NCBI GenBank assembly: GCA_030747505.1
Contig: JASLKQ010000025.1
Span: 1 to 38,540, forward strand
Direction of reading: 5' to 3'
From: Verrucomicrobiota bacterium
GTDB taxonomy: Bacteria; Verrucomicrobiota; Verrucomicrobiia; Limisphaerales; UBA1100
Length of the DNA stretch: 38,540 nucleotides
Position 1 is the first letter of the stretch. Each line of letters opens with the position of its first letter. Positions 556 to 29,917 of the stretch are shown here, one piece after another. Position numbers and translations under genes: made by a program. Under the pieces are notes generated by a model. The model ran no database searches and had not been told where the DNA came from. It worked only from the letters and a program-made list of their open reading frames with translations.

Positions 556-1782
556 TCAGCCCATCAACAAGCCCATGTCTTTAGTGCTGCTCCCAAAGCG
601 CTCGGCATCAATGTCGTTCTTGTGCAGTAGTTCCAGGTAGAGGTTACAGAGTGGCGTGGGCTTCTCGAGCATAGTGTGGGTCTGGTGCCGGTATCCACCG
701 CCAGCCACGATCATAGGCAGGTTGTTACAGGTGTGGTTTGAGGAATCACCAAAATTGCTACCCATCACCACAGTAGTATGATCAAGCAGTGTTCCTGCCC
801 CTTCCTTGATTTGATCCATTTCAATAAGGAACTGGTTAAAGTGCTTGAGGGTATCGATCTCGATCTTGCTTAGTCTGGCAATCATATCCGGCTTGCCTCC
901 ATGATGTGACAAGGTATGCCAGCCACCGGTGGCACCAGGCACCTTGATGGCACCGTAGATCCAGTCCATGGATAAGGTGATCACGCGCGTGGAGTCGGTT
1001 TGAAGGGCCAGCTTCGCCAGCTCAAACAGATTGTGGATCTTGGTGGAAAACGGGAAATCCGCATCCTCACTCAGGCTCTTGGCCACCTTCGGCTTTTTGG
1101 TGTTCAGCCAAAACTGTTCGTGCTCCAGCTGTGTTTCCAGTTCACCAATCACCTTTTGATAGCTCTCCAGCTTGCCGCGGTGCGAGCCTTGCTGGCGCAA
1201 CTGCGCCAGATCGCGCTGCAGGTTCCTGAGGATGTATTGGTCATTGCGCAGCCGCTGCTTGGTGGCCTGCAAATCCTCGTCCTTGAAGAGCAGATCAAAA
1301 ATCTTCGCCTCATCATGCATCGGCGGAATGGCCGCACCGCGATCATTCCACGAACAACCCCAGCCGCGATCATATATGCTAAAATTCAGGAACGGAAAAC
1401 GCGTATCGCTACCCATCTTACGGGCCAGAACCTGATCCAGCGAGATGCCGTTTACAAAGGTGGGCGACTCCGGGCTGGGGGTGCCGGTGAGAAACGATTT
1501 TTCCGAGTCGTGATTACTGGTGTCCATGCCGGGATGAAACAGGTTCTGGAACACCGTCATCTTCTCCAGCGTCTTCATCCCCTTCAAATAATCCGAGGAA
1601 CTCAGGTCACCGCGTTTCTTCGGGAAGAAGTAGGGCTCATAAAATCCCAGACAACTGTTGATGAAAATAATCCGCTTGGGCGGTGTCTCAACCTTTGCCT
1701 CGGCACGCTGGCTCAGCGACTGCAATGCCAACGGCAACGCCGCGCCGATTTTGAGGAAATCTTTTCGGCTAATATTTCTCAT
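556..1782 (-). CDS. DUF1552 (HxxSHH-motif) exported protein
   Basis: This 408-residue protein matches the DUF1552 family, found mainly in Planctomycetota and Verrucomicrobiota; its biochemical role is unknown. The family motif HTLSHH is at residues 289-294, and the later MGSNFGDSSNHTCNNLP block ending in AGGG is also typical. The N-terminus SRKDFLKIGAALPLAL resembles a Tat signal with Arg-Lys in place of Arg-Arg. Residues about 171-236 are Gln/Leu/Glu rich and probably form a coiled coil. The frame extends upstream to 1842, but the start at 1782 is preferred: it has a good Shine-Dalgarno sequence and forms an ATGA overlap with the stop of the DUF1592-type gene. That coupling agrees with the usual pairing of DUF1552 proteins with DUF1592-type cytochromes, so the two probably act together in the periplasm. 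Confidence 0.88.
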   Translation of the reverse strand: MRNISRKDFLKIGAALPLALQSLSQRAEAKVETPPKRIIFINSCLGFYEPYFFPKKRGDLSSSDYLKGMKTLEKMTVFQNLFHPGMDTSNHDSEKSFLTGTPSPESPTFVNGISLDQVLARKMGSDTRFPFLNFSIYDRGWGCSWNDRGAAIPPMHDEAKIFDLLFKDEDLQATKQRLRNDQYILRNLQRDLAQLRQQGSHRGKLESYQKVIGELETQLEHEQFWLNTKKPKVAKSLSEDADFPFSTKIHNLFELAKLALQTDSTRVITLSMDWIYGAIKVPGATGGWHTLSHHGGKPDMIARLSKIEIDTLKHFNQFLIEMDQIKEGAGTLLDHTTVVMGSNFGDSSNHTCNNLPMIVAGGGYRHQTHTMLEKPTPLCNLYLELLHKNDIDAERFGSSTKDMGLLMG

Positions 1783-4625
1783 TGCTGCTCTCCTTCCAGT
1801 GAATAGACCAATACCATTGTAATCAAGTCTTTCATCCGGCACGCCTCCGCTTCGGCAGGGATCATCGCGTACAATTCCAGGCGTTGCTCCAGGTTGGGCT
1901 TATAGCCGTTGGCATACTCAAAGAATTTCTTGGAAAAATTATAGGCGACCTTCCGGTGATCCGAGAGCAGGATTTTCTTGAGTCCAAACACATCCTCAAA
2001 CCTGGCCTTATCAATCTCCCCTGCCGAATCCACTTCCCCAGCCAGTTTATAATACCCTTTCGCCTGATAGGTGAACGTACCGCGATGCGGCCTTTTGATG
2101 CGATACTGGGTTCGCCATTGTCCCGTGGCATCAAAGTTCTCCAGCGCGAACCCGTAGGGATCAATACTCTTATGGCAGGCGTAACAGGCCGGGTTAGTTT
2201 TATGTTCCTCAATTTGCTCACGGAGAGTAGCAGCCTCCTTGCCATGTTCTGGTTCGATTGCCTTTACCTCTTCTGGAGGAGGTGAAAGTGTATTACCCGC
2301 AATATTCTTGGATACCCACGCGCCCCGCCGGATGGGTGAGGTGTCAAAACCATCCGCGGTAACCTTGAGGATACTCCCCATGGTTAAGAGCCCGCCGCGC
2401 GGCACTTCCGTCCCGAAGGGCACCTTGCGCAACTGCTGACCAATCACCCCTTCAACACCATAGTGTTGAGCCAGGCGCTGATTCAGGAAGGAAAAGTCCG
2501 CGTCAATCAAATGCCCAACCGGTAAATTCTCCTGAATCAAATGATTAAGATAAGCCTCGGTCTCTAAAGGCAGGTAATGATTCAAAAGATCGTTGTACAG
2601 TGGATACAGCTTGAGTGAAGGCGCCACCTTGTTGAAGGAGCGCAGGTTAAGCCACTGATCACAAAACGAATGAATCATACGCCCACTTTTCGGGTCCTGC
2701 AGCATGCGATCGATCTGAACTTCCAATACATTGCCATTAAGCCTATCGGTTGCCGATAAACCGAGAAGCTCCTTATCAGGAACCGAAAGCCAAAGGATTC
2801 GGGCAAGATCAGCGGCTGTCCCATAGGATCTATTCTTATGTTCCCCGGGCGCCATTAGAAACCGGTGGGAACAAATAATCGCCTTCAGGCCGACCTTGGC
2901 CGCCGCCACAAAGTCACCCTGCTCCTCCAGTGCCGTGAGGCTGGCGGCATAATACGGCGCCAATTCATCCTCCGGCAGGCTCGAGGCAAACGCCCGCTCG
3001 GCAAACCGCCCGATCACTTTTTTCAGGTCATCGGCTGATCCAGACAAAACCGAAACCCGAAGCGCCGACCCTCCTTTCGGCAACACAGTCATTACATCCA
3101 GTTTCCCAATCGAGGCGAGCGAGCGGCCATCCAAAGTAAAGGCATCAGTCACCAGAAACTTGATGAAGCGTTTGTTGGTTGGCTTGGGAAAGAGGATGGG
3201 CTGTTCACTGGCCAATCGAATTTCAAGCTCCCCTTCAATAATTGGATCACCCCAGAATTTGCCATCATTAGAAAGATGAATCGCATAGGCCTTTACCTGC
3301 CCATTGCCATTTCCACCCGACCAGGTTGCATACGAGAGCCCCTCGATTTGTTTGCCCTGCGGATTTTCCAGCACCACAAAGTGCGGTGGCTTGGCCAGAG
3401 TTGGCTTGAACCGTGTATGCCAGAAGGTTCGGTTGGAGCCATCCTGCATCTTCTCCTTTTCCATTCCCTTCTGGAAACTACTGACAGAAACCTTGCCGCC
3501 GATGGCCTTCAATTTGGTTTGTGTGACAGTCGCCGATTGCACCTCACGCGGCAGCGCCTGCAGCGGCAAGCCGGTAAACACATCGCGATAGGTTTGCGGC
3601 GGCCATTGCGCCAGCACCGGCCCGCGCACCTTCAACTGCTTGATATACGCGCCCACCTTACCGCCGCGCTGGCGGAAGTTATGCTTGGAATAGCAGTGTA
3701 CTGAAACGTTTTCGCCCGGATACAGGAAGACTCGCACGGTGTGGGATTTCATCTCACGATTACCCAGCGAGATTACGTCCAGCAATCGCTGCGGCTGTGG
3801 TCGATCATCGGCATAATAATATTTCCCGGCAAAAACCTCGATACTGACATCCTCCTTAAAGTCGCCCAGTTTCATCGCATCAAAAACCAATTCATACCAA
3901 CCCTTCACAGGCGGATCGAAGTTGTCGTAGAAGAAGGAATAACTGTTTCCGTTATTGGCTCGGGTCCAGGAAAAGAGAATGCCCTCCTTATATTTCCGGG
4001 TATAGATATTGTAGCTCTTGTGGCTGTCCTTAAGCTTGTTGGTCACCCAGATCCGTTCCTGGGCAAACCCTTTTTCAGGCAGGGCAAACTCAAGCATTTC
4101 ATCGGCTGCCACGAAATAGGAAGTGAGCATCTGCTTGGTTAGCTGAACCCTTCGGTCCGAATCAAAGTCGTGGGTGCCTCTGTCTTCCGGGATTTCCCCA
4201 GTCAGATCCAGCTTCACACCCAGCAGATCATTAACAGAATGAACAAACTCATGACGACTGATCCGGCGGTAATCCTTGGGGGCAACTTCAACCTGACGCT
4301 GCGCCAACCAATCCAGCATGAGTTGTTTCTCCTTGAGAGCTGGCTGCTTTTTGTTCTTGGGCGGCATCTTCGCCGTGATCAGATGCTCGAACACAAGAGA
4401 ACCATCAGTGTCACCTTTTCCCATCTGACCAACCAAATCAAGACCACCTTTCCTTGTCTCATCATCATGACAATCAAAACAGTGTTTCTCAAACTGCTCC
4501 AAAGCGGCTTCCTTTAGCTTTGTGGAAGTTACAGGATTTGCCTCTACAAGAAATACGGCAACAAAAAAGCTGACCAACATAGAAGCCGCCATGAGCGAAT
4601 ATTTGTGTCCGCACACCCTAACCAT
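1779..4625 (-). CDS. DUF1592/DUF1588/DUF1585-type diheme cytochrome protein
   Basis: About 948 residues. A signal peptide (MVRVCGHKYSLMAASMLVSFFVAVFLVEA) precedes a cytochrome-like domain with CFDCH at 49-53. Next comes a DUF1587-like segment (RRISRHEFVHSVNDLLG), then a long beta-rich, probably ligand-binding region. The C-terminal half follows the family order DUF1595, DUF1592 (FCDQWLNLRSF), DUF1588 with a second heme site CYACH at 814-818 followed by KSIDPYGFALENFD, and DUF1585 (KVAYNFSKKFFEYANG). Such proteins are thought to be periplasmic cytochromes of PVC bacteria, with unknown substrates. The start at 4625 gives a normal signal peptide; an in-frame ATG at 4691 would overlap the sulfatase stop and add 22 residues. 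It is coupled by ATGA to the DUF1552 gene and follows the sulfatase by 59 bases. Confidence 0.87.
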   Translation of the reverse strand: MVRVCGHKYSLMAASMLVSFFVAVFLVEANPVTSTKLKEAALEQFEKHCFDCHDDETRKGGLDLVGQMGKGDTDGSLVFEHLITAKMPPKNKKQPALKEKQLMLDWLAQRQVEVAPKDYRRISRHEFVHSVNDLLGVKLDLTGEIPEDRGTHDFDSDRRVQLTKQMLTSYFVAADEMLEFALPEKGFAQERIWVTNKLKDSHKSYNIYTRKYKEGILFSWTRANNGNSYSFFYDNFDPPVKGWYELVFDAMKLGDFKEDVSIEVFAGKYYYADDRPQPQRLLDVISLGNREMKSHTVRVFLYPGENVSVHCYSKHNFRQRGGKVGAYIKQLKVRGPVLAQWPPQTYRDVFTGLPLQALPREVQSATVTQTKLKAIGGKVSVSSFQKGMEKEKMQDGSNRTFWHTRFKPTLAKPPHFVVLENPQGKQIEGLSYATWSGGNGNGQVKAYAIHLSNDGKFWGDPIIEGELEIRLASEQPILFPKPTNKRFIKFLVTDAFTLDGRSLASIGKLDVMTVLPKGGSALRVSVLSGSADDLKKVIGRFAERAFASSLPEDELAPYYAASLTALEEQGDFVAAAKVGLKAIICSHRFLMAPGEHKNRSYGTAADLARILWLSVPDKELLGLSATDRLNGNVLEVQIDRMLQDPKSGRMIHSFCDQWLNLRSFNKVAPSLKLYPLYNDLLNHYLPLETEAYLNHLIQENLPVGHLIDADFSFLNQRLAQHYGVEGVIGQQLRKVPFGTEVPRGGLLTMGSILKVTADGFDTSPIRRGAWVSKNIAGNTLSPPPEEVKAIEPEHGKEAATLREQIEEHKTNPACYACHKSIDPYGFALENFDATGQWRTQYRIKRPHRGTFTYQAKGYYKLAGEVDSAGEIDKARFEDVFGLKKILLSDHRKVAYNFSKKFFEYANGYKPNLEQRLELYAMIPAEAEACRMKDLITMVLVYSLEGEQQ
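1788..1795 (-). promoter_or_regulatory. Shine-Dalgarno site of the DUF1552 gene
   Basis: On the minus strand AAGGAGAG occupies 1795-1788, with AGGAG seven bases before the ATG at 1782. It lies inside the last codons of the upstream gene. It fixes the DUF1552 start and is the strongest ribosome-binding site I see in the window; most other starts here have none that is obvious. Confidence 0.7.
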
Positions 4626-4684
4626 TTTTCTCTGACGGGAACACTGGGCAACTATATTCACGCAGGAGTAATTTCTTAGATAAA

Positions 4685-6046
4685 TTACCATTTTGGTTTC
4701 ACATCCTTGGCCCAAGCCGTGTGAAGGGTCCGCAACCGATCAACTACCTCCGGTTTTTCTTTTGCGTAATCCTTCACTTCAGGCTTGGCATCGGCAAGGT
4801 TATGCAAAGTCACCTTGGGCCGACCTTCCACCCCAATCAGTTTCCATTTCCCCTCCCGCACAGCCCATTTGTTACCCCAGGCAAAGTGCAGGGCTTTGTA
4901 TTTCGATTTCTCCCTGACATCATGGATAAGAGGCAAAAGATTAAACCCATCGAGCTTGGGCGATTTGGCCGGTTGCTTCACTCCGCAAAGATCGAGCACG
5001 GTGGGAAACCAATCCATGGCTGTCACCACCTGATTTCGCACCGATCCTTTTGGGAGCTTGTCCGGAAAGCTGATGATAGCGGGCACACGCACGCCTCCCT
5101 CAAGAAAAGTTCCTTTTTGCCCAATCCATTTGCCGGTGGACCCCCCTCCACTGGCACCATAAAAATGCCCTTTGGGGCAACCACTCTTATGATTATCCAC
5201 TCGAATTCGATTGCCGGTTTCTTCTGAGTGCCCGTTGTCGCTCATGAAAATCACAATGGTATTTTCACGCAGCTTGTGTTCCTCCAGTTTATCGATTACC
5301 TGACCGATATAATAATCGGTGGTTGTCATGATTGCCCCATAGGAACGGCGGGCGGGATCTTTCATGTCCTTGTACAAAGCCTCATGTTTTTTGAGTGCCT
5401 GCTCCGGGTAATGCGGGATATTAAAAGGCACATAGAGGAAAAAGGGGCGGCCCTTGTTTTGATCAATGAACTTCAGGGAACGCTGCACCATGAGCTCGGG
5501 AAAATACTTGCCGGGCGCCTTCACCGGTGTGGTGCCCTCGTACAGATCATGAAAGCCGGTGCCGTGCAGGAAGTAGTGGTTATAGTTGTCAATGAATCCA
5601 TCACGAATTCCAAAGAACTCATCAAAGCCCTGAATCTTGGGACCGTAATCGCGGTGCGCACCCAGGTGCCATTTGCCGAATAAGGCCGTACGGTACCCTG
5701 CCGGTTTCAGCGCCTCAGCCAGAGTCACTTCCTCCAGGGCCATATTAATCCCCTTGGCCGAATTCATGTCTCCTTGAGTCCAGTGCCGCACCCCACCGCG
5801 TTGCGGATGTCGGCCGGTTAATAACGCGGCCCGGGCCGGACAACAGACCGTGTGCGCATAGGCCTGGGTAAACCGCACCCCGGTGGCAGCCAGCCTGTCG
5901 ATATTGGGGGTAATCAAATCCTTGGAGCCATAACAGTTTACATCCAGCGTCCCCTGGTCATCGGTAAAAAGGATGACGACATTGGGTTGCTTGGCCTGCA
6001 AACCGTTGACAAATAGCAGAACCAAAAAAGTATAAATTCGGATCAT
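4685..6046 (-). CDS. Type I sulfatase (arylsulfatase A-like), secreted
   Basis: About 453 residues with signal peptide MIRIYTFLVLLFVNGLQA. The sulfatase signature C-x-P-x-R is C68-C69-P70-A71-R72, followed by AALLTGR; Cys68 is the residue expected to become formylglycine. Metal-ligand blocks are visible as LFTDDQG near the N-terminus and FMSDNGHS in the second half, and GKWHLG is the usual conserved lysine and histidine block. It would hydrolyse sulfate esters, probably on sulfated glycans, in the periplasm or outside the cell. The maturing enzyme (FGE or anSME) is not in the window. The frame is open upstream to 6172, but only the start at 6046 places a signal peptide at the N-terminus. It is probably transcribed with the DUF1592-type and DUF1552 genes downstream. 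Confidence 0.92.
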   Translation of the reverse strand: MIRIYTFLVLLFVNGLQAKQPNVVILFTDDQGTLDVNCYGSKDLITPNIDRLAATGVRFTQAYAHTVCCPARAALLTGRHPQRGGVRHWTQGDMNSAKGINMALEEVTLAEALKPAGYRTALFGKWHLGAHRDYGPKIQGFDEFFGIRDGFIDNYNHYFLHGTGFHDLYEGTTPVKAPGKYFPELMVQRSLKFIDQNKGRPFFLYVPFNIPHYPEQALKKHEALYKDMKDPARRSYGAIMTTTDYYIGQVIDKLEEHKLRENTIVIFMSDNGHSEETGNRIRVDNHKSGCPKGHFYGASGGGSTGKWIGQKGTFLEGGVRVPAIISFPDKLPKGSVRNQVVTAMDWFPTVLDLCGVKQPAKSPKLDGFNLLPLIHDVREKSKYKALHFAWGNKWAVREGKWKLIGVEGRPKVTLHNLADAKPEVKDYAKEKPEVVDRLRTLHTAWAKDVKPKW

Positions 6047-6249: not shown

Positions 6250-7713
6250 CTAATCGACCAACTCAATCACCGCAAAAATCGCCCGGTGATCCGAAGCCAC
6301 AGCCTCATCCAGTACTTTAGTTTCAACCACCTTCCACCGATCTTTTGGTCGCACCAAGATATAATCAATCTGGCGCACAGGTTTGGTTACCGGAACGGTC
6401 GGGGTAATTTCAGGATTGGTGCGCATCCATAATTTACCCAATTCCTTTAAGGTGGGGCTACTGGGCACATCATTAAAATCCCCGGCCAGAATGGCCGGTC
6501 TATTTTTTTGCTCACCCATCATTTCGTTGATGAATTTTGCCGAGGCACGCCGTTCTGCATCCGGCCGGCGGTGATCCAGATGCGTGGCCATAAAAAGAAT
6601 ACTCTCCTCTTTTGATACCTTGATAACCGATTCAAGCACCCCGCGTTGTTCGCCCATATCCACATTGGGCAGGTGATGGTTCTTGTGTCGGGTAATGGGA
6701 AAGCGCGAAAGGATGGCATTGCCATAATGGCCGCCCTGAAAGTCGATATTGGCCCCAAATACACTTTTCATTTTTGTCAGGCGCGCCAATTCAGCCACCT
6801 GATCCACCTTTTGGGTGCGCTTGGTTTTTTGATCCATCTCCTGCAAGGCTACCAAATCCGGTTTGACTGATAAAATCACCCGTGCAATCCGAGGCACATC
6901 AAGTTTGCCATCCACGCCTTGCGCGTGATGAATGTTATAACACAGGACCCGCAGCCGAATTGGTTCCGCCTTGGCAGAAGCAAAAATCACCTGCCGCTTG
7001 GCCCGGCTGATCCCTACCAACCCTCCAGTCACTGGATCATTGGCCAATCCCTGCCCGGTAAAGGGAACAGCGTGTTGACCCAAATATTCCAGTTCACTGC
7101 CTTCCTTGGGCAGACCCAGCCGAAAGGCCACCGGATCATCATGACCGGTCGTCCACAGTTCGTCCCCGCGCCAAATGCCACCTGACAAACTATGACGGCC
7201 GAGCTGACTGATGACTTTCTTTGGATAGGTCCAGCGGGCGACTTCCTGCCACTTTTCATCATACTTGACCAGGAACGTCTTGCGATTATCCGCTCCATAA
7301 AGAGCAAAGTTACACCACCAGAAACCGTCCTTATGCAATACCCACGTCAACGAACCCCCGGCACTGCCGAAATCCTTGAAGGTGGTCAGCTTCATGGAGT
7401 CAGTATCGAGCACCTTGACTTCACTGCGCTCGGGCTTGAGGGGATAGTTGGAATGCGCACACAACAGTTTGCCCTTCCAGAAAAAGCCACTATTCAAATG
7501 CTTGGCCGCGCCTTCGCTCGTTGCCACGCGTTTACCACTATTACGGTCGTACTTGGCAACCCCCCGGCTGGTAATCGCGTAAATGAACTTCCCTTCTGCC
7601 GCAGCCGCCTGGTGCGCTTCAGGCGCAGGCAGTTTTCGCTCCGCCTTCCACTGTGCCCCAACCCCAACCCATACCCCTTGAGCCAAAAGGAGGAACGCCA
7701 GCCAAAGCTTCAT
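6250..7713 (-). CDS. Propeller-like domain fused to endonuclease/exonuclease/phosphatase (EEP) domain
   Basis: 487 residues in two parts after signal peptide MKLWLAFLLLAQGVWVGVGA. Residues about 22-245 form short repeated beta motifs (IYAITSRGVAKYD, GFFWKGKLLCAHSN, GIWRGDELWTTGHD) that suggest a beta-propeller. Residues 254-487 are a complete EEP hydrolase domain: Asn260 in YNIHH, Glu292 in LQEMD, His378 in THLDHR, Asp412 and Asn414 in GDFND, Asp450 in QIDYILV and His476 in SDHRA. All the metal and catalytic positions of the family are present, so it should be an active phosphodiesterase or phosphomonoesterase. Its substrate (phosphosugar, phospholipid or nucleic acid) is not known. The start at 7713 lies one base after the stop of the preceding gene; an in-frame ATG at 7734 would spoil the signal peptide. 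It is the last gene of operon D. Confidence 0.85.
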   Translation of the reverse strand: MKLWLAFLLLAQGVWVGVGAQWKAERKLPAPEAHQAAAAEGKFIYAITSRGVAKYDRNSGKRVATSEGAAKHLNSGFFWKGKLLCAHSNYPLKPERSEVKVLDTDSMKLTTFKDFGSAGGSLTWVLHKDGFWWCNFALYGADNRKTFLVKYDEKWQEVARWTYPKKVISQLGRHSLSGGIWRGDELWTTGHDDPVAFRLGLPKEGSELEYLGQHAVPFTGQGLANDPVTGGLVGISRAKRQVIFASAKAEPIRLRVLCYNIHHAQGVDGKLDVPRIARVILSVKPDLVALQEMDQKTKRTQKVDQVAELARLTKMKSVFGANIDFQGGHYGNAILSRFPITRHKNHHLPNVDMGEQRGVLESVIKVSKEESILFMATHLDHRRPDAERRASAKFINEMMGEQKNRPAILAGDFNDVPSSPTLKELGKLWMRTNPEITPTVPVTKPVRQIDYILVRPKDRWKVVETKVLDEAVASDHRAIFAVIELVD

Positions 7714-7714
7714 G

Positions 7715-9202
7715 CTATTTCTTGGGGACTTCATTTACAGTGTAATAGGCGTGGCGATGAAGCAACTCCTCCTGATCGCGATCACGCAATAGGCCAAGGT
7801 CAAATTCATGCACATGGCCGCGCTTGAGTTCACTTAAAATAATCTGCGCACTCAAACCATCAGCCGCCAGCTTGGCGCTCTTCACCTGCGGCGTGGTCTG
7901 GTCCACCTCCGGGCCTCCATAGCCGCCGTGGTAAATGTGGGTAAAGGTGCTGAGCTTATAACTTTTGGGATCATTCCCCGCCCTGGCTTCCACGGGCTTG
8001 GTAAAGGTAATCCTAAAGCCATCAGAGGTAATGTTGATCCGCTTAATTTCGAAGGGCATACGCCCGGTCCAGTCCAGTCTTTCCAAAGCAAAGGGTTTAA
8101 TGCCACGCACCGGCCAGCCGCGGTTGGTACCTCCAGCCAATAACCGACCCTTTGGTGTAAACTGCACATTCAGGATTCCGGTAGACAACCCCTCACGAAA
8201 GGGATAACACGCACCCTGCCACACACCATTGATCTGTTCAGTGGTCGCGCGCATGATAATTGACTGGGTGTAGTCACCGAGAAATATTTGGTTTTCAAAC
8301 GGACCGAACTTGCCACCCGTACGATCCACCACATAACCGGTAATGGAACGCCCCATGCGAATGTAGGGAAAGATCACTGCATAAGGCACCAGTTCCTTGA
8401 CCTTTTCCTTCTCGGTAACAATGCGCGTGCCGCTTTCGGGCTTGGCGGGTTCCTTGAGGTGTGGCGCATATTTATACCAGTTAAAACTAACCGGGTGCCC
8501 CATGAAACCACCGGGCTTGAGAAACTTGAGGCTACAGGAGGAATTCCACGGGCCCTGGCTCTCAATATAAAAGAGTGCACCGTGTTCATTGGGGCCAATC
8601 CCACCGGGGCTCCGCAAGCCGCTGGCAATGGGAATGGATTTACCCTCAGGGGTAATCTTCATCGCCCAACCACGAAAGAGCGCACGCGAATGATAGGAAT
8701 TGGATAGGCCCAGTGCCACGTAGAGATTACCCTTCTCATCAAACTTGGAGCCAAAGGCATACTCATGATAATTCCCGTATCCCCACGCATCAGAAACCGT
8801 TTCAAACCGGTCAGCGCGACCATCATTATCAGAATCCACAACCCGTGTAAGCTCTGCACTGTGCGTGACATAAAGAGCCCCTTTTCGGTGAGCCAACCCG
8901 AAAATTTCATCCAACCCCTCAGCAAACTGATGGAACTGCGGCCTGGGCTTTTCCTCATCGATACCTTTGACAAAAAAGATATCTCCCCGACGGGTTCCCA
9001 CCGCCAACCGGTTATCAGGCATCAGTTCAAATGCCCCGGCCTCAATCACCTGACCCTTGGGCATGGGAATACTTACCACACGATAATATTCGCGTTCGCG
9101 CTTCTCGGTTCCCCATCGGTCCCCCACTTCCTCAGCAAGAACCGAAATGCTCAAGAACAGCCCCAGCACACTGGATAATTTTGTTTTAACGCAATAACTC
9201 AT
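7715..9202 (-). CDS. Sugar-dehydrogenase-like beta-propeller protein, secreted
   Basis: 495 residues with signal peptide MSYCVKTKLSSVLGLFLSISVLA. The body resembles the propeller of PVC glucose/sorbosone-dehydrogenase-like proteins: MPKGQVIEAGAFELMPDNRL, LAVGTRRGDIFFVKG, and a Ca-binding-like DSDNDGRADRFE loop followed by GYGNYHEYAFG. Later blocks are SGLRSPGGIGPNEHGALFY and VQFTPKGRLLAGGTNRGW. There is no CxxCH, so electrons would have to leave to a partner; the five-heme protein encoded just upstream is the obvious candidate, and the two genes overlap by 17 bases. The C-terminal 120 residues are a separate beta domain (FRITFTKPVEA). True dehydrogenase activity and PQQ binding are not shown by sequence; it could simply bind a ligand. 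Confidence 0.82.
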   Translation of the reverse strand: MSYCVKTKLSSVLGLFLSISVLAEEVGDRWGTEKREREYYRVVSIPMPKGQVIEAGAFELMPDNRLAVGTRRGDIFFVKGIDEEKPRPQFHQFAEGLDEIFGLAHRKGALYVTHSAELTRVVDSDNDGRADRFETVSDAWGYGNYHEYAFGSKFDEKGNLYVALGLSNSYHSRALFRGWAMKITPEGKSIPIASGLRSPGGIGPNEHGALFYIESQGPWNSSCSLKFLKPGGFMGHPVSFNWYKYAPHLKEPAKPESGTRIVTEKEKVKELVPYAVIFPYIRMGRSITGYVVDRTGGKFGPFENQIFLGDYTQSIIMRATTEQINGVWQGACYPFREGLSTGILNVQFTPKGRLLAGGTNRGWPVRGIKPFALERLDWTGRMPFEIKRINITSDGFRITFTKPVEARAGNDPKSYKLSTFTHIYHGGYGGPEVDQTTPQVKSAKLAADGLSAQIILSELKRGHVHEFDLGLLRDRDQEELLHRHAYYTVNEVPKK

Positions 9203-11417
9203 AACGGATTTGAATTCCGGATTTGCCCTTGGGTAGTTTCAGTTTCAGTAAAAGTTCCCGTACCTCGCCTTCACCCCGCAATAGCGCAGTCCCTTCAGGC
9301 ACCTGCAACTTCACCGCATCACTGGTAAATTCTGTTCCCGAGCGCTGCTGCAATCTGCCTGTAAGCGCGCGAAAATAAACTGTCTCAGGCTTCGGAGCTG
9401 TGAATTGAATTTTGCGCACCAGACCATCACGGATCGCCTCCGCCACCCCGGCAACTGAAGTGTCTTCAACCTCCACTTCTCCAGTCTGGTAGAAAAAAGT
9501 TGGCACACCATTCTTGTCGAGTCGGTAGCCCTTAAACTGGTAACCCCGATTGCGGGGATATAGCGGGTCTGGATTCACCGGATTATCCTTATCCATCCTG
9601 GGCCGCAGCGGCCACGAATCACCTTCCTTTTCCAAACGGTAAAACGCCACATCCTGTGCCAGTTCAATCGGTCGTCCCTTGGGATTAAAATTCCCGGCAC
9701 CCTGACCACCCCAGCCAACACTGACAAAATCCCCCTTCCATAAGCCACTCAATGAACCATACTCCGCATTGAAGGTGTAACTCACACCACCCGGAAAACC
9801 CACTGCAATACCACGGTATCCCGCAATCCGGCTTCGACCACGGTACACCCGCACCCGATCGGTGATCTTCAAATCCGTCCCCACTGAACGAATCCCTGAA
9901 GGGTCCCGCGCAGAACGACCCAGAGAAAAATAATACCACAAGGCGCGCATTTGTTCATCGGTGTCCCCTTCCAAAACATCCTTGCGAACTGCCTCATCTC
10001 CGGGCCAAAAATTAGGCATCACTATACCCGGCCTGTATTTTTGTGGGTTCTTCATGAAATGAACGAACCAACTGGGCTGCAACCGCTCAAAGGAATTGAG
10101 CAGATCAACCCCCTTCAACCCCGGAGAGGCTTTGCCATTGAAGTTGTGGCAGGCGATGCAGTTCAAACCCTTGTCACCCAATAGTAAATGGCCGCCATCA
10201 CGGTACTTGCGCCGGTCATTACGCTTGGGCTCGGGCAACTCCACCTTTGGCAATTGATCAACCTTCTCAAATAACCCCGGCAAATGACCAAGATTGGCTT
10301 CACCAAATTGCGGCATGCGCGTGTGCATATAGGGCCGCACGGTTTCTGCATCAAACAGAACCTTGCGCAACCATTCGGGCTTCAACTTTGCCCCCACCCC
10401 ATCCAATGTCGGAGGAATCCGCGCAGGATTTCCCAATCCATCCTCATCGGTACCGAAATATTGGAACATCGCATTACTCACCCCTCCTGCCCCATCACGC
10501 GTATGGCAGGCAATACAGTTGAAGGCAGCCAATGACTGGTGGATTTGCTCCTTATCTCCAAGTGGATCACCCAGTGCAGGAAGAGCTTGATTGATTACCT
10601 CTCGTTGTTTCTGAGATAAATGAAAATGAGGCGCGACCTTTGGCTTTGCAGACAAACAACCTCTATCCGGTCGCAGTTTTTCCAGTGCCAGGGAGGGGCT
10701 GCCCTTCAACCCATCAAGCTCATGACATGAGGCACAATTAAGCTGTCCAAAATATTTCCTGCCCGCTGCCACCTTGGCAGCAACGGGTTTAAATTCCGAA
10801 AGTTTAACGGCTTTAAATCCGATCAAGTAACTGGCAATCGATTTTGCCTCTTCACGCGTAAGATTCATATCAGGCATTCGCCCGGAGGGTCGTGTGTGAA
10901 GGGGCTGAAACAAAAATTCGGACAGTGAATCCACGCCATACTTCGATGGCAAATGTGATAACTGCACGCCTTTACCCGGCAGATGACAATTAATACACCC
11001 GATTTTTTCAAAAAGTTTTTTGCCCGGATCAACTTCCTCCTGCTTCACAACACCTTCAATAAAAGAATTTCCCGTACGACTGATTAAAAAGTGTGTTAAT
11101 GCCTCGGCAATCTCATTTCTTTTGGAGTTGCCCTCCAGGAGATCCGGCATTTGTGTCCCCGAATCCACGCTGTGGGGGCTGGCAATAAATCTCTGTATGA
11201 AATCTGGATTTAAACGCGAACCCACCAGCGATAAATCCGGCCCTTTCTTTTGCTTAACCGCTTCAGTGGCATGACAGGACGCGCAGCGCAACTCCGAAAA
11301 CAAAAGTCGGCCCTTCTGGGGTTCAGACAAACCCTGTTTACCTGTCAGCCCGGGAACAACTGGCGCAGCCATTACCCCGACCGCTGCCAAACACAATATG
11401 CCGACCGATTTTTTCAC
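9186..11417 (-). CDS. Pentaheme c-type cytochrome with C-terminal beta domain
   Basis: 743 residues starting at a GTG (11417) that overlaps the sulfatase stop as GTGA. After the signal peptide there are five c-heme sites: CASCH 45-49, CINCH 141-145, CASCH 228-232, CIACH 301-305 and CIACH 420-424. Methionines suited as distal ligands follow four of them (Met90 in TQMPDL, Met181 in GRMPDM, Met368 in TRMPQF, Met467 in IVMPNFW). None is obvious after the third, which may be bis-His or use another residue. The last 250 residues are beta-rich and heme-free (SYTFNAEYGSLSGLWKGDF) and resemble a carbohydrate- or partner-binding domain. It should be a periplasmic electron carrier, and its place between a sulfatase and a propeller dehydrogenase-like protein suggests it receives electrons from the latter. 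Cytochrome c maturation must be encoded elsewhere. Confidence 0.9.
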   Translation of the reverse strand: MKKSVGILCLAAVGVMAAPVVPGLTGKQGLSEPQKGRLLFSELRCASCHATEAVKQKKGPDLSLVGSRLNPDFIQRFIASPHSVDSGTQMPDLLEGNSKRNEIAEALTHFLISRTGNSFIEGVVKQEEVDPGKKLFEKIGCINCHLPGKGVQLSHLPSKYGVDSLSEFLFQPLHTRPSGRMPDMNLTREEAKSIASYLIGFKAVKLSEFKPVAAKVAAGRKYFGQLNCASCHELDGLKGSPSLALEKLRPDRGCLSAKPKVAPHFHLSQKQREVINQALPALGDPLGDKEQIHQSLAAFNCIACHTRDGAGGVSNAMFQYFGTDEDGLGNPARIPPTLDGVGAKLKPEWLRKVLFDAETVRPYMHTRMPQFGEANLGHLPGLFEKVDQLPKVELPEPKRNDRRKYRDGGHLLLGDKGLNCIACHNFNGKASPGLKGVDLLNSFERLQPSWFVHFMKNPQKYRPGIVMPNFWPGDEAVRKDVLEGDTDEQMRALWYYFSLGRSARDPSGIRSVGTDLKITDRVRVYRGRSRIAGYRGIAVGFPGGVSYTFNAEYGSLSGLWKGDFVSVGWGGQGAGNFNPKGRPIELAQDVAFYRLEKEGDSWPLRPRMDKDNPVNPDPLYPRNRGYQFKGYRLDKNGVPTFFYQTGEVEVEDTSVAGVAEAIRDGLVRKIQFTAPKPETVYFRALTGRLQQRSGTEFTSDAVKLQVPEGTALLRGEGEVRELLLKLKLPKGKSGIQIRYELLR

Positions 11418-13006
11418 TTTTTCTTTTTCTTTCCCCCCGCAGCCTTGCGGAGGGTTTCGAATACTTCATCATATCCACCCCCCGGAACCGCGTTCCCACC
11501 GGGAACAAATTCTCCATAAGGTCTCCCTGAAAATTTATTTAATTCGACGGCGAGTGTTTGCTTTAACTGCTTTAATGTCCGCGCATGTCCTGGATAGCCC
11601 GCAAGATTTTTTTGGGCATCCGGGTCACGTTTCAAATCATAAAGCTGATCACCTGTATAGGCACGCGGATGGGTGGCAATGGACCGGGAAACCCCGCCAC
11701 TTAGGCCTGTTAAAGTTTTTAAATACCTGCGGTGACTCTCCCTGACCCCGGCAACCTGTTCGCGGGTGTAACGCAGGGCGATGTAACTGTGGGTCTTGGT
11801 TTTAATGGACCGGGCCGCGCCAATCTCAGCATAAACATGTTTGCGTACAGGCTTATGGGGTTCCTGAAAGAGGGATACCAAACTCACACCGTCCATCCGG
11901 TACTTTGCCGCCGGTTTTGCCCCGGCCAACTCAAACCAGGTTGGGACAAAGTCGGTATTTTGAATGAGCTCTTGGCTGCGAATCCCCGCTTTCATGCCAG
12001 CTGGCCAGCGCATGATACAGGGCACTTCGGTGCCCTTGGCCTTGTACAGTGAACCCTTGTGACCGGATCCATGGTCGGCAATAAAAAGAACCACGGTATT
12101 TTCCGTTAATTTGAGTTCATCAAGCTTGTCCAGGATGAGCCCAAGTGAATCATCCATCCACAGGTAACCGGCCTGATCGGATGTTAAGCCAGCGGCCTCA
12201 ATCCGCTTCATCACCGAACCACGCGGGGGAAGCACGTTTAAATCCTCCTTAATGATTCCTTCTCCGGTGACCCTGGGTTTATCCAATGACTTATGCCAGG
12301 AGCCATTGGGCCCATGTAAAAGTGTGGTGCAGTAATGCATATAAAATGGCCCCTTTTTATGCTGCTCAATGAATTCCACTGCCGCCGCTGCGGTCCATTC
12401 TGGATTGTGACTTTGAAAGGGGGCCTTGGTGTTGTCCCAGTAAATATTCTTGGCCCAGGTGAACCCAAAATCCTTCACTGCTTTCCGGTAGCCCTTTTCA
12501 TTCTCAAATTTCCTACGATTGAGCGCTTCGGTAAAAGGGGCATTCTTTTCAATCTCATGTAAACCGTACTTTTTGCGAAACTTTGAATCACTGAGTGATG
12601 GGCCAACATGAAACTTTCCAACCATGCCGGTTGCATACCCCGCCTTGGCCAGCACGGCTGCCACATTCTGGTTGTCCGGCTCCAATTGAACATTAAAAGC
12701 AGGCAGGCTTTGCTGCCCTTTGGGAAACAATTCCAAAAAACCAGCCGAGTAGGCAGAACCCGCATAACGGCCGGTGAGAAATGTATACCGGGAAGGTGTA
12801 CATACGGTGCTGGTCACATGCGCATTCTCAAAAGTAATTCCCTCCTTTGCCAAGCGGTCAAGATTGGGCGTGAGAACCTTCCCGCCATAAACACTGGTCT
12901 CGTACTTGTCATAGTCATCAACCATGAAGACGATGATGTTCGGTCGAGACCCTGCATTCAGCAACTCAAGATATCCAAACATCATCACCATAAAACAACG
13001 TGTCAT
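11414..13006 (-). CDS. Type I sulfatase, secreted, with lysine tail
   Basis: About 530 residues with signal peptide MTRCFMVMMFGYLELLNAG. The active-site signature is C69-T-P-S-R followed by YTFLTGR, the classical C-x-P-S-R form, so Cys69 should be converted to formylglycine. FMVDDYDKYETSVYGG gives the N-terminal metal ligands, and LFIADHGSGHKGSLYK the C-terminal ones. Overall it resembles choline-sulfatase/heparan-N-sulfatase-like enzymes, but the substrate cannot be assigned. The protein ends in GGKKKKK. The lysine codons form a purine-rich stretch directly before the GTG start of the next gene and may serve as its ribosome-binding region. The start is uncertain: ATGs at 13027 and 13048 are in frame. 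It is the first gene of operon D and is divergent from the stand-alone EEP gene. Confidence 0.9.
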   Translation of the reverse strand: MTRCFMVMMFGYLELLNAGSRPNIIVFMVDDYDKYETSVYGGKVLTPNLDRLAKEGITFENAHVTSTVCTPSRYTFLTGRYAGSAYSAGFLELFPKGQQSLPAFNVQLEPDNQNVAAVLAKAGYATGMVGKFHVGPSLSDSKFRKKYGLHEIEKNAPFTEALNRRKFENEKGYRKAVKDFGFTWAKNIYWDNTKAPFQSHNPEWTAAAAVEFIEQHKKGPFYMHYCTTLLHGPNGSWHKSLDKPRVTGEGIIKEDLNVLPPRGSVMKRIEAAGLTSDQAGYLWMDDSLGLILDKLDELKLTENTVVLFIADHGSGHKGSLYKAKGTEVPCIMRWPAGMKAGIRSQELIQNTDFVPTWFELAGAKPAAKYRMDGVSLVSLFQEPHKPVRKHVYAEIGAARSIKTKTHSYIALRYTREQVAGVRESHRRYLKTLTGLSGGVSRSIATHPRAYTGDQLYDLKRDPDAQKNLAGYPGHARTLKQLKQTLAVELNKFSGRPYGEFVPGGNAVPGGGYDEVFETLRKAAGGKKKKK

Positions 13007-13109
13007 GGATTGAGGATTAAGTAGCATTGGATGAAGGTCAAACCTCAACGCAAATACACCCCATTATTCCAACTTGCCGAAAAAGGGCGTAACCCTTAAC
13101 ACTAAACAC
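13007..13109. promoter_or_regulatory. Divergent intergenic region between sulfatase operon D and the EEP gene
   Basis: These 103 bases must hold start signals for both directions, since the sulfatase operon leaves to the left and the EEP gene to the right. A weak plus-strand match (TTGCCG at 13074-13079, 17-base spacer, TAACAC at 13097-13102) is the best I can find and is not convincing. A short inverted repeat AAGGG/CCCTT lies at 13083-13097. Confidence 0.4.
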
Positions 13110-13973
13110 ATGGCCCACACAATTGTTCGCACCATATTACTGTTAGCTCTGGTGCTTTATTCCGAAGTCCAGGCCCAAAAACCGGTTGCGCCTTCAACCC
13201 TCAAGGTGATGAGCTTCAATATCCGCTACGCCAGTAATTTCGGGGCAAACTCCTGGCCCAAGCGACGCAGTGGCGTGGTTCAGGTGATCCGCGATAAAAA
13301 AGCCGACCTGATCGGCACGCAGGAAGGATTACATCACCAGTTGCTTTACATGGATAAGGAGCTAAAGAACCACAAATGGATTGGTGTTGGCCGCGAAGGC
13401 GGTAACAAAGGCGAATTCATGGCCATCTTCTACCGAACCGACCGGTTTAAGCCATTGGAAACAAGACACTTTTGGTTGTCCAACACTCCCGAAGTCGTCG
13501 GCTCAGCAAGCTGGGGCAACAGTGTAAAACGAATGGTTACCTGGGTGCGCTTTCGCGATCTCAAAACAAATAAAGAATTCTATTTCTGGAACACCCACTT
13601 TGACCACCGCTCACAACCCTCCCGTGAGAAATCAGCTCAATTAATCGTAAGCCGGGTGAACGCATTAAAAACCAAACTACCCGTCATTCTCGTTGGCGAT
13701 TTCAACGCAGTAGCCAAGGCTAACCGGGCTTACGACACACTCACCGATCAGGGTGCATTCACGGACTCATTTGACACAGCAAAGGAAAAAGTGAATGCAG
13801 GCTGGAATACCTTCAACAGTTTCAGAAAAACCGAAAAAGGCAAAAGACGCATCGACTGGGTTTTAACCAAGGGTCCACTAACAACAAAACGAACTGAGAT
13901 TGTGCTTTTTGATGAATCCAAACAACTTCCGAGTGACCATCAACCTGTCACTGCAATAGTTCAAATCAAGTAG
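13110..13973 (+). CDS. Secreted endonuclease/exonuclease/phosphatase (EEP) family protein
   Basis: 287 residues with signal peptide MAHTIVRTILLLALVLYSEVQAQ. The EEP motifs occur in order: MSFNIRYASN (Asn37), GTQEG (Glu72), FWNTHFDHR, LVGDFNA, RRIDWVLT and SDHQPVTAI at the end, so metal binding and catalysis should be intact. The length and the NIRYA/TQEG/TDSF pattern match the secreted group often annotated as sphingomyelinase-like or metal-dependent hydrolases of polysaccharide-degrading bacteria; the true substrate is unknown. The ATG at 13110 is chosen because it begins the signal peptide; an ATG at 13074 adds 12 charged residues. It is one of only two plus-strand genes, divergent from the sulfatase operon and ending 24 bases from the convergent formate dehydrogenase gene. 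The other EEP domain in the window is fused to a propeller. Confidence 0.88.
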   Translation: MAHTIVRTILLLALVLYSEVQAQKPVAPSTLKVMSFNIRYASNFGANSWPKRRSGVVQVIRDKKADLIGTQEGLHHQLLYMDKELKNHKWIGVGREGGNKGEFMAIFYRTDRFKPLETRHFWLSNTPEVVGSASWGNSVKRMVTWVRFRDLKTNKEFYFWNTHFDHRSQPSREKSAQLIVSRVNALKTKLPVILVGDFNAVAKANRAYDTLTDQGAFTDSFDTAKEKVNAGWNTFNSFRKTEKGKRRIDWVLTKGPLTTKRTEIVLFDESKQLPSDHQPVTAIVQIK

Positions 13974-26515: not shown

Positions 26516-29500
26516 TCAAATACCACCCACGGGCTTGAACTTGCCGGATGACCCGGGAACTTGAATTAGTTCCACCCGCAGACCGGTTTCGCCCCGTTTG
26601 GCCCGGTCGATGGCGAAGGTCAGGGTTTTGCGCCCCTTACCCAGATGAATGGGTTGGGTGAGATCAGTCATCTCCCTGTCTCCAATCCAAAGACGGAGCC
26701 CCTTGGTATCATTAAGCTGCAGCTTTAGATTGCCAGGAACCAATATATCAATATATCCGCGGACGTAAACGACCCTGCCACGACCAAGATCAGCTGCAGG
26801 CAGCTCTCCATTAACCAAGCTATAGGCGGTCAACCAGGGAGCTTTCTCTCCGGGTATGGAACCGGCTCGCTCTTCGGGTGCGATACGCCACTTGCGAATG
26901 ATGGGGCTTTCATCGTTCGCATAGGGGCCAGGCCGGCCCAGTAACGAGACGAACTTGGCCAGATCCAGAAATTCCTGACGCGTCTTTAACTGGTCAACAA
27001 GTCCCGCAGGCATAAGTGAGGGCATTGGTTTCATTCTGCGGACCTTGTCCATCGGTATCCTGACCTCTTTGCCGCCCAGAGCGGAGTCCCTCAAGACAAC
27101 CTCCTTTTCGCTTTGGTAGGTGATTGCCCCCATGTGGATCGCCCCGTCAACAAGGGTGATCAATTTGTTTTCGTAATGCTGGGCAATGGCCTTGTTCGGC
27201 TGCAATATGGCCTCGATGACATAATCGGTCTGGGCAGCTGCCCCCACCGCAACCAGGTTAGGTCCGATGTGAGGGCCTACCGGGCCAATGGCATGACAAC
27301 TAATACAAGCAAGAGCCTTGCGGCGATACACCTTTTCGCCCCGGACCGGATCACCCAATTGGGCAACATCACTGGTGAGTGTCTTGCGGCTTTCTTTGAT
27401 CAAAAGAGCACTGAGCGACTTTGGGGTGGAAGTGTGAAAAATCTGCTCGAGTGATTTAGGCAACTGCCCGGTGCGGCGATGGTACTCAGCCAACTGGTCC
27501 ACCACCTGCGGATGTGGCTTTTTCCCCTCCAGAGCCTTGGTCAGGGCATTGCTTCCACCTGATTGCCGGGTAAAGGCTGAAACAAGAGCCACCGGATCAG
27601 ATTGGCTCAGGCCCTGAACAAGCAGGTCCGCCGAAGCTTCAGCCGCTTCATCCAGATCAGCCGCAATCAAACCAAACACAGCGAAGTAACGTTCTGAAAG
27701 GTTCCCCTCGCGGGCGAGCCTCCTCAGCGTATTGGCTGCTTCGCCTCCCTTTAGCTGGCCCAGGGAAACGGCGGCAGCTCGACGGACTGAAGCGACTCTC
27801 CTGGCATCGCGTAATATCCTGAATAAATCCGGGTCCGCCCCCTTCAGCTGCCAAACCCCAAGATTGGCTATGGCAGAAGCGGCCACTTCATCGTTCGGGT
27901 GTTTAAGTAATCCTTTCAGGGGAGAAATCCGTTGACCAAGGGAAAATTCACCCCGACGACCCACCTTCGTCAGGCCATCAAGCAGAGCCAGCGCAACCTC
28001 ATGCGAAGTTTCCGCACCTTTTTGGCCGAGGAAATCGACCACCATGCGAGCCTGCCGAATGGTCCCGTCAGAAACCAGACGATTTGCAATTAAGCGGGTT
28101 TCCTCAAGACCGGGAGTTTTCTTCTTTAAATAGGAACCCAACCGCTTGTCAAAACCAAGGCCTGCCTCCCGCTCGGCAAACTCCCGGTGGGACTCCTTGT
28201 CAAACTTCAACTCCCCCGCTTCAAGGGCTGGCCGCCAATAGCGCTCAAGGGCGGTCACCGCCTGCGGAAGGGCCAGGGAAATAAATTTATCCTGCTTATG
28301 ATCCAGCGCGTTCAAGGCGGCTGAAAAGGCCCGGGCATCGGGTATGAACCCGGCTGAAAGAACCGCTTCCATGCGTGCCCGGGCAAAATCATCCCTGGAA
28401 AGCTGGGCAATCATTGCCACCGGATCAGACAAGTCACCATGCCAGTAACGAATCACGCGAGCCCCCGCCGCACGAGCATGCCCATCCTTGGAATCAAGCA
28501 CCCTCTTCAATATTGGCTCGCTGGAACGTTCCACGTTTTGACAGGCCCACATCGCTTCCACCAAATGATGTGCATGCCCGGACCCGGAAGAATCCAGAGC
28601 CTTCACCCAAGTTTCGGTTGCCGCAAGCACCGCATCGGGTTCGCGTTCACTCAGTTCCTTGCGGGCCTGATGGCGTATCCACGCCTCCGGACTCTTAAGA
28701 TGCTGAAGCAATCCCTGAATTGAAGCATCGACCAATTCAGGTCGTTTTATAAGTGGACGATTCTTGGCGGTAATACGCCAGATACGCCCGTGATCATGGT
28801 CGCGCCTGGGATCGCGAAAATCGCGCTTGGCATGATTGATAATCGAGTTGTACCAGTCAGCCACATACACCGCTCCATCAGGACCCATCTTGCAATCCAC
28901 CGGCCGAAAGTTCGGGTGCTTGGAGGCAATCAATGGCTTAAGCACCTTGGCACTGTACCCGGCTCCGTCCTCAATCAATTCATAACGGACAATCGTGCGG
29001 CTCTTAAACCGGCACGTGAGCAGTTGCCCCCGAATGTCCGGTGGCAAATGGGTCCCGGTCGCCAAATCGCCGCCGCACTGTTTCTCCGTGCTGATCAATG
29101 GAGTAAGCCGAACGCTTTGACCGCTGTTGCCCGAGATCGGCGAAAGATACATGATACGCGGGTTGTTAACCATGAATGACTGGCCCCACCGGTCAAACAC
29201 ATGACCCCACGGGTTTCCCCCTGTGCCCCGGCAAAACATCTTTAGTTGTTGTGTCCGCGGGTTGTATTGGTAGACGCCGCCATTGAAGTTGCGCACAACC
29301 CCATACTGAGTCTCAACCTGGGTGTGCAGAAAAATGCCTTCCTGAAAATAAATCCAGCCGCCAGGCCCACGCCGCCAGGCGCTGATGGAATGGTGACTGT
29401 CTTCAATGCCAAAACCCGTCAGCGCCACCTTCTTCACGTCAGCGACATCATCGCCATCTGTATCCTTGAAAAAGAAAACATCCGGTGACTGCGCCACATA

Positions 29501-29917
29501 ACAGCCTCCATTGGCCAACTCAATGCCGGTGGGAAGATAGAGACCCTCGGCAAAAACAGTCGACTTGTCGGCTTTCCCATCCTGATCAGTATCCTCAAGA
29601 ATGATGATCTTGTCGTTGGCCTTCTGCCCGGGCTTGAGCTGCGGATAGGCCCATGAACAGGCGACCCACAGCCGGCCTTTCGAATCCCATACCATGTGAA
29701 TCGGGTTGGCAAACATGGGCTCAGAGGCGAAGAGATTGACCTCATAGCCCGGCATCAATTCAAAGTTGGCCTTTTCCACTGCCGGGTCATGATTGGTCAT
29801 GAGGGTTAAGTCCGCCCCCTGAAGATTGCGTTTATTCAGGCCTTCTGCGGGGTCTTGTGATTGGACGCCCCCGGCAAGGGCCAGAATCACCGTCGCTATT
29901 ATCAGTATTCGGTTCAT
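26516..29917 (-). CDS. PVC-type propeller dehydrogenase-like/HEAT/cytochrome c protein
   Basis: 1133 residues with signal peptide MNRILIIATVILALAGGVQS. The first 400 residues form the propeller of the PVC membrane-bound dehydrogenase-like family: FELMPGYEVNLFASEPMFAN, LEDTDQDGKADKSTVFAEGL, KDTDGDDVADVKK (Ca-binding-like loops), GFGIEDSHHSISAWRRGPGG. Residues about 430-830 are helical HEAT-like repeats. A heme domain follows with CISCH near 871-875, GPHIGPNLVAVG and a likely distal Met in SLMPAG. The last 110 residues are an extra beta domain. It could oxidise a sugar or other substrate with the propeller and pass electrons to its own heme, but the cofactor is not established. Its ATG overlaps the SGNH-like stop as ATGA. 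Confidence 0.9.
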   Translation of the reverse strand: MNRILIIATVILALAGGVQSQDPAEGLNKRNLQGADLTLMTNHDPAVEKANFELMPGYEVNLFASEPMFANPIHMVWDSKGRLWVACSWAYPQLKPGQKANDKIIILEDTDQDGKADKSTVFAEGLYLPTGIELANGGCYVAQSPDVFFFKDTDGDDVADVKKVALTGFGIEDSHHSISAWRRGPGGWIYFQEGIFLHTQVETQYGVVRNFNGGVYQYNPRTQQLKMFCRGTGGNPWGHVFDRWGQSFMVNNPRIMYLSPISGNSGQSVRLTPLISTEKQCGGDLATGTHLPPDIRGQLLTCRFKSRTIVRYELIEDGAGYSAKVLKPLIASKHPNFRPVDCKMGPDGAVYVADWYNSIINHAKRDFRDPRRDHDHGRIWRITAKNRPLIKRPELVDASIQGLLQHLKSPEAWIRHQARKELSEREPDAVLAATETWVKALDSSGSGHAHHLVEAMWACQNVERSSEPILKRVLDSKDGHARAAGARVIRYWHGDLSDPVAMIAQLSRDDFARARMEAVLSAGFIPDARAFSAALNALDHKQDKFISLALPQAVTALERYWRPALEAGELKFDKESHREFAEREAGLGFDKRLGSYLKKKTPGLEETRLIANRLVSDGTIRQARMVVDFLGQKGAETSHEVALALLDGLTKVGRRGEFSLGQRISPLKGLLKHPNDEVAASAIANLGVWQLKGADPDLFRILRDARRVASVRRAAAVSLGQLKGGEAANTLRRLAREGNLSERYFAVFGLIAADLDEAAEASADLLVQGLSQSDPVALVSAFTRQSGGSNALTKALEGKKPHPQVVDQLAEYHRRTGQLPKSLEQIFHTSTPKSLSALLIKESRKTLTSDVAQLGDPVRGEKVYRRKALACISCHAIGPVGPHIGPNLVAVGAAAQTDYVIEAILQPNKAIAQHYENKLITLVDGAIHMGAITYQSEKEVVLRDSALGGKEVRIPMDKVRRMKPMPSLMPAGLVDQLKTRQEFLDLAKFVSLLGRPGPYANDESPIIRKWRIAPEERAGSIPGEKAPWLTAYSLVNGELPAADLGRGRVVYVRGYIDILVPGNLKLQLNDTKGLRLWIGDREMTDLTQPIHLGKGRKTLTFAIDRAKRGETGLRVELIQVPGSSGKFKPVGGI

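Follow-up and report, generated by a model that had tools for sequence, protein, structure and literature searches.

The described systems closest to the genes reported here are the soluble, PQQ-dependent sugar dehydrogenases (GSDH, PF07995; 3a9g, 2ism, 2g8s, 1c9u), the heme-binding CxxCH proteins of the Planctomycetota-Verrucomicrobiota-Chlamydiota (PVC) type (TIGR02604/TIGR02603, DUF7133), and dehydrogenases with multiheme cytochrome c subunits (8hdd_B, 9x0q_B). We analyzed a pair of genes, encoding a pentaheme c-type cytochrome (CYT) and a heme-free propeller protein (PROP), in contig JASLKQ010000025.1 of a Verrucomicrobiota bacterium. The whole 38,540-nt stretch analyzed is called the window, and all coordinates are positions in it unless a locus or contig handle is given. 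PROP resembles GSDH proteins in its propeller fold, a conserved His and Arg, and a GP turn; it differs from them in that the residues of the RNPQG and GGDELN motifs are replaced, in having an extra C-terminal domain and a regular multiheme partner, and in coming from a genome without PqqE above cut-off. The PVC-type proteins also combine a propeller with heme c, and PROP narrowly passes the threshold of PF23500 (31.6 bits, cut-off 27), while its 31.8 bits against TIGR02604 do not reach the cut-off of 122.2. Unlike in those proteins, the heme domains here are on a separate gene and number five or six. Dehydrogenases of the 8hdd_B/9x0q_B type share with the pair the combination of a catalytic and a multiheme c subunit, and the heme 3 segment of CYT matches them weakly by profile. 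Their catalytic folds differ from that of PROP, and CYT is set apart from their cytochrome subunits by five hemes, a super-sandwich domain, and a candidate His/Cys heme.

CYT (11417-9186, minus strand, GTG start) is a 743-residue protein that matches PF00034/PF13442 and contains five CXXCH motifs, at residues 45, 141, 228, 301, and 420. PROP (9202-7715, minus strand, ATG start; 495 residues, with a propeller and a C-terminal beta domain) overlaps the end of CYT by 17 bases (9186..9202). PROP contains no CXXCH, so the heme domain is absent from the propeller chain. Each protein begins with a signal-like stretch, as judged by eye, and each is probably exported.

We scanned genome contigs with a propeller profile, which yielded at least 574 confirmed relatives, and examined the best 80 loci, titled mainly Verrucomicrobiota or Planctomycetota (L numbers below denote these and other loci). 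Five of these loci have no room upstream of PROP. In 73 of the 75 testable loci, a CYT homologue lies directly upstream of PROP on the same strand, at an alignment-estimated distance of -35 to +273 bases (most commonly -17). Five CXXCH motifs are present in 47 of these 73 partners and six in 22; the other four are truncated or split. Clustering of neighbor families across the 80 loci revealed none besides CYT in more than 22. Among 58 close and order-level relative genomes, 48 have PROP matches, and the window's family, with 20 genomes, has close PROP orthologues (86-100% identity) in seven. Such recurrence of the pair 9186-11417/7715-9202 (73 of 75 testable loci) is more than chance. Thus, CYT and PROP are a genuine, widespread module, shared by many planctomycetes and verrucomicrobia. 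When the phylum was sampled evenly, the pentaheme type proved rare: the heme 3 segment was found at E 1e-6 in four of 145 genomes, including the window's own. A second lineage of pairs was also apparent (L056 2808-4454, L062, L064, L070), in which the partner has a single CXXCH, retains the CYT C-terminal domain, and adjoins other PROP paralogues; the L056 partner additionally carries PA14.

The fold of PROP was modeled with AlphaFold2 from 60 sequences (the window and 59 of the 80 loci; 21 were dropped by eye as partial, split, or otherwise, without a strict rule), giving a predicted local distance difference test score (pLDDT) of 91.4. The top six PDB entries for this model are sugar/glucose dehydrogenases of the GSDH type (Z 26.9-28.7 over 286-301 residues, within residues 33-381). 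The best match is 3a9g (Z 28.7) and the next fold scores 23.6; the aligned range of the best match places the propeller domain at about residues 35-381 (8060..9100, minus strand). The absence of CXXCH motifs, the model, and the structural matches agree that 7715-9202 encodes a heme-free propeller, as had been read from the DNA beforehand. Sequence profiles were less informative. Searched against the PDB, one PROP profile (A1) returned nothing and another (A4) returned mainly short designed-propeller repeats, with quinoprotein glucose dehydrogenase only at E 0.58. PROP itself has no match to PF07995 at E 0.001, and its fused paralogue L059 is marginally above the cut-off (27.8, cut-off 25).

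We aligned PROP with GSDH proteins from related genomes (L153-L155), which score 385-408 bits against PF07995 (L153 also matches 7cdy at 258.6 bits). In PROP, His146 aligns to within a column of the His conserved in GSDH and is invariant across all 60 sequences; Arg197 is retained from GSDH in all 60, and QGP stands in place of HGP. The residues of RNPQG and GGDELN, which bind PQQ (pyrroloquinoline quinone) and Ca, occur in L153-L155 and, completely or almost so, in the PDB members shown, and are replaced in 60 of 60 PROP sequences. All 60 have Ser for the Asn of RNPQG; the Gln of that motif has become Gly, Cys, or Ala, and a WN..CSLK stretch takes the place of GGDELN. The alignment of the basic RxRD residues of the last blade is uncertain, with MAFFT placing R336 there and a gap-free reading by eye placing G342/L344.

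PqqE was above cut-off in three of the 58 genomes. Two of these three (G027 and G029) have no PROP match, and the window's own genome (90.66% complete) has no PqqE above cut-off. PQQ can be imported, and because the window's genome has three other GSDH matches at E 1e-15, there is room for such import. Canonical PQQ dependence of PROP was nonetheless rejected, given the replaced motif residues and the lack of PqqE above cut-off in its genome. Because of these replacements and the PqqE pattern across the 58 genomes, PROP is, as predicted from model and alignment, the fold of a PQQ enzyme without its usual site, and canonically bound PQQ is disfavoured as its cofactor. Seven residues, His146, Glu147, Arg197, Gln216, Trp219, Asn220, and Lys226, are invariant in 60 of 60 sequences and are candidates for the active face. 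One PROP paralogue in the window's genome (L060 7462-9438) is fused to CBM6, which supports a carbohydrate link; searched against the PDB, it was mainly the CBM that matched.

Heme ligands in CYT were counted in 93 aligned sequences (the window's, 69 from named loci, and 23 from whole genomes, a few of which may share a contig). Hemes 1, 2, 4, and 5 are predicted to be His/Met, with Met90 in 91 of 93 sequences, Met181, Met368, and Met467 in 93 each, and a Pro directly after each Met. Heme 3 is different. Its CASCH motif (residues 228-232; 10722..10736, minus strand) has its two Cys and its His in all 93 sequences, and there is no conserved Met; residues 233-285 are entirely Met-free in 56 of 93. 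Instead, Cys254 (10656..10658, minus strand), a candidate for the sixth ligand, is invariant in all 93. It lies 19-31 residues from the heme His (22-25 in 75 of the 93), a shorter distance than the Met residues of these proteins show, and 56 of 93 sequences have exactly one non-heme Cys past the first heme motif. Because Cys254 is invariant and no Met is conserved, we infer that heme 3 is a His/Cys heme.

His/Cys ligation is known from the SoxA family, in which the Cys participates in catalysis (PMC4423706). CYT would resemble the SoxA/TsdA cytochromes in having, among several hemes, one with Cys as its sixth ligand; these cytochromes are not among the best 60 of 242 PDB matches of CYT heme 3, and the likeness is an analogy only. 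The heme 5 segment scores 60.4 bits against SoxX, another subunit, just below the cut-off of 61. We also considered whether CYT is a PSCyt protein (PSCyt1-3) and rejected this, as it has no PSCyt or PSD domains at E 0.001. Elsewhere in the window's genome, at G000:C176:83421-83933, a 658-residue open frame carries two tandem segments resembling CYT heme 3.

The C-terminal domain of CYT also bears on the relation between the two proteins. The AlphaFold2 model of CYT was built from 36 sequences (A3: the window and 35 of the 69 CYT proteins with at least five CXXCH; a further alignment, A6, holds 35 of these 36) and has a pLDDT of 88.8 and a predicted template modeling score of 0.71. Helical heme segments extend to about residue 500 and are followed by a beta domain at about residues 515-743 (9189..9875, minus strand). 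This domain is a predicted galactose-mutarotase-like super-sandwich (VIA-align Z up to 11.7) and matches the super-sandwiches of glycosidases, polysaccharide lyases, and GalM at Z 10.0-11.7. Foldseek with whole CYT likewise returned mainly polysaccharide lyases and glycosidases. The match of the domain to DUF6797 was weak and below cut-off (E 0.047).

Remote relatives of this domain are fused to propellers. In L084, a single chain consisting of a heme c domain, a domain like the CYT C-terminal domain (E 2.8e-9), and a propeller is encoded immediately upstream of a normal split pair. An N-terminal extension ahead of the propeller is present in 22 more chains, including two from the window's own genome, L059 and L061, in which DUF6797 scores 6.4e-5 (just below cut-off) and 2.1e-23, respectively. 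The fused set thus comprises 23 of 27 propeller chains; four with less than about 230 residues before the propeller were excluded. Because the CYT C-domain profile picks up the fused chains only weakly, we used profile-profile comparison. With hhalign, the domain matched the N-terminal regions of the 23 fused chains at 96.9% (E 1.5e-10) and at 95.9% without L084. A reversed control gave 4.3%, five column permutations gave at most 0.1%, and the C-domain against the PROP alignment gave 0.3%. The domain order in the fused chains is the gene order, CYT then PROP. The fusion of CYT C-domain relatives to propellers in paralogues argues for contact between CYT and PROP in one complex.

The pair is flanked by a sulfatase gene (SULFA; 13006-11414, minus strand, ATG start) and a gene for a phosphodiesterase of the endonuclease/exonuclease/phosphatase (EEP) superfamily (7713-6250, minus strand, ATG start). 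The four genes share the minus strand and run in the order SULFA, CYT, PROP, EEP, with a GTGA stop/start overlap between SULFA and CYT (11414..11417), the 17-base overlap, and a 1-base gap before EEP. This order and these junctions are as the original prediction had them, with the proviso that EEP may instead start at ATG 7734, which would give a 20-base overlap. SULFA is an S1 sulfatase, with a CTPSR sequence that fits the CxPSR formylglycine motif and a PF00884 match at 6e-43. EEP matches PF03372 at 1.1e-26, and the QEMD, HLDH, GDFN, DYI, and SDH motifs of the superfamily are all in the window protein. A further sulfatase gene (4685..6046, minus strand, ATG start) lies 203 bases past EEP.

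The closest solved relative of SULFA is OpSulf1 (9FVT; 266.6 bits, the next at 102.9). OpSulf1 is described as an enzyme for C6-sulfated alpha-1,3-mannan, and its counterpart PbSulf1 is assigned to S1 subfamily 51 (PMC13063451). SULFA is like that system in its best solved relative and unlike it in that no GH92 was detected in the window's own genome. Because of this, and because the genome has one GH99-like frame, on another contig, mannan is only a lead as the SULFA substrate. That GH99-like stretch (PF16317; G000:C34:868-3186) lies beside a sulfatase and could be the true locus for sulfated mannan.

To what extent SULFA and EEP belong with the pair was assessed in the window's family (the window and loci L033, L034, L035, L036, L037, and L038) and in the 80 loci. 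In the family, SULFA precedes CYT in six of six loci with room, EEP adjoins PROP downstream in five of six, and a divergent second EEP gene (13074-13973 in the window) is also upstream of SULFA in five of six, L037 being without it. The 4-base SULFA/CYT overlap is confined to the window, L034, L035, and L038 among these loci. SULFA and CYT are separated by an additional open frame of some 500 bases in L033 (6431-6930) and L037 (12112-12662), and two opposite-strand genes intervene between PROP and EEP in L034. The intervening frame, which is absent from the window, looks DUF1801-like by eye, no search having been made.

Across the 80 loci, EEP matches occur in L115 alone, whose contig is apparently that of L038. 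Only L115, L117, and L119 have a same-strand sulfatase no more than 300 bases upstream of CYT; in L117, L119, and L052 (a locus from the whole-genome set), other kinds of sulfatase immediately precede CYT in the same orientation. A sulfatase lies anywhere in the locus in 25 of 80 by BLAST and 22 of 80 by clustering. With 116 sulfatase matches in the 3.46 Mb of the window's own genome, a Poisson estimate at that density predicts about 29 of 80 by chance, a rough figure since matches include fragments and cluster and the density is that of one genome. We thus rejected the four-gene order as a general system, as it is seen only in the window's family, can be interrupted by other genes, and shows sulfatases no more often than the chance estimate (25 versus about 29 of 80). 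The gene-order search across PVC genomes, which the original prediction had proposed for a sulfatase-cytochrome-propeller-EEP system, therefore upholds the CYT-PROP pair (73 of 75) and confines the full order to the window's family. SULFA and EEP are local additions, outside the conserved module.

We give even chances to the reading that CYT and PROP form a two-subunit, periplasmic, probably carbohydrate-directed oxidoreductase of PVC bacteria that lacks a canonical PQQ site. PROP would bind the substrate, probably a carbohydrate, through its sugar-dehydrogenase-fold propeller, and electrons would pass to CYT, relayed through four predicted His/Met hemes and one predicted His/Cys heme towards a terminal oxidase. 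The CYT super-sandwich would dock PROP and may hold a glycan. In the window's family the pair sits between a sulfatase and an EEP enzyme, presumably owing to shared induction on one sulfated glycan. A bolder form of this reading is unlikely: that the pair represents a new class of periplasmic glycan dehydrogenase that works with heme and without PQQ, in which the propeller presents the sugar, His/Cys heme 3 is the catalytic or low-potential entry, the four His/Met hemes are a wire, and the super-sandwich holds the glycan chain.

Several observations weigh against the two-subunit oxidoreductase. Two of the 75 testable loci have no adjacent CYT; the gene upstream of PROP encodes a prolyl oligopeptidase in L131 and a DUF1501 protein in L142 (judged from an apparently identical contig, fetched as L046). 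The 80 loci are the best matches of at least 574 and hence not a random sample. Super-sandwiches also occur in the non-sugar protein YidC (Z 11.4). L084 is the sole chain in the searched set in which CYT C-domain and propeller are each detected at E <1e-3, the other fused chains singly scoring 0.0037 to 8.2 or nothing, and the hhalign match covers 141 columns at 13% identity, with an E-value for a single comparison. Propellers of the same shape include lactonases, phosphotriesterases, and binding proteins (Z 21-23.6), and PROP may not be redox-active. This last point leads to a somewhat unlikely alternative, in which PROP would be a hydrolase or lactonase with a propeller fold, or else a scaffold that binds carbohydrate and keeps substrate in place for CYT or neighboring hydrolases. 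SMP30, DFPase, and gluconolactonase folds at Z 21.7-23.3 and the CBM6 on one own-genome paralogue are consistent with it, but strict pairing with a multiheme cytochrome and the heme-domain fusion in L084 are hard to explain for a hydrolase.

It is quite improbable that PROP is instead a GSDH-type PQQ sugar dehydrogenase that runs on scavenged PQQ and that CYT is the cytochrome subunit of this enzyme. The nearest folds are of the GSDH type, 3a9g and 3das being named PQQ-dependent, and the position of His146, the retained Arg197, and QGP at the HGP position all fit; against these stand the Ser in place of the RNPQG Asn in all 60 sequences, the replaced GGDELN, the lack of a PF07995 match at E 0.001, and PqqE above cut-off in three of 58 genomes, not the window's, with two of the three lacking a PROP match. 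We consider it very doubtful that all four genes work as a unit in one desulfation-oxidation-dephosphorylation operon. The recurrence of SULFA (six of six) and of both EEP genes (five of six each) in the family loci speaks for this, as do the other sulfatases directly upstream of CYT in L117, L119, and L052, while the near absence of EEP and of close same-strand sulfatases from the 80 loci, and the genes that interrupt the order in L033, L037, and L034, speak against it. The original proposal of a dehydrogenase-carrier pair is thus partly supported: it is strengthened for CYT and PROP by the pairing, the sugar-dehydrogenase fold, and the fused relatives, with a canonical PQQ dehydrogenase disfavoured and dehydrogenase activity itself putative, and it is weakened for the whole operon.

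Further observations concern other parts of the window. The frame at 26516-29950 combines a fused DUF7133 propeller, HEAT repeats, and one CXXCH, and is a single-chain cousin of the split pair. A 3-keto-disaccharide hydrolase gene (PF06439; 36470-37171) and a ThuA gene (31173-32048) lie near PSCyt/DUF1501 genes, which hints at 3-keto-sugar chemistry. Downstream of the four genes, at 556-4715, a DUF1552 gene overlaps a gene for a PSCyt3/PSD protein with two CXXCH; the same pair is present in L112, L121, and L124.

Among the literature matches listed, no paper was recognised as describing the CYT-PROP pair, a weak negative with subscription journals mostly uncovered, and the main text of PMC8857213 does not mention cytochrome, heme, or propeller. 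Another report notes that PSCyt genes are often beside sulfatases in PVC bacteria and leaves their function open (PMC5615132). New here are the motif replacement in PROP, the CYT super-sandwich with its fused relatives, and the invariant Cys at heme 3. PVC bacteria have many cytochrome and propeller genes of unassigned function, often near sulfatases, and the CYT-PROP pair looks like an unstudied periplasmic oxidation machine. The module is regularly paired, spans two phyla, and has a fused homologue, a fold like that of sugar dehydrogenases, and an invariant heme-domain Cys; it thereby narrows this vague association to one definable complex that could be expressed and assayed.

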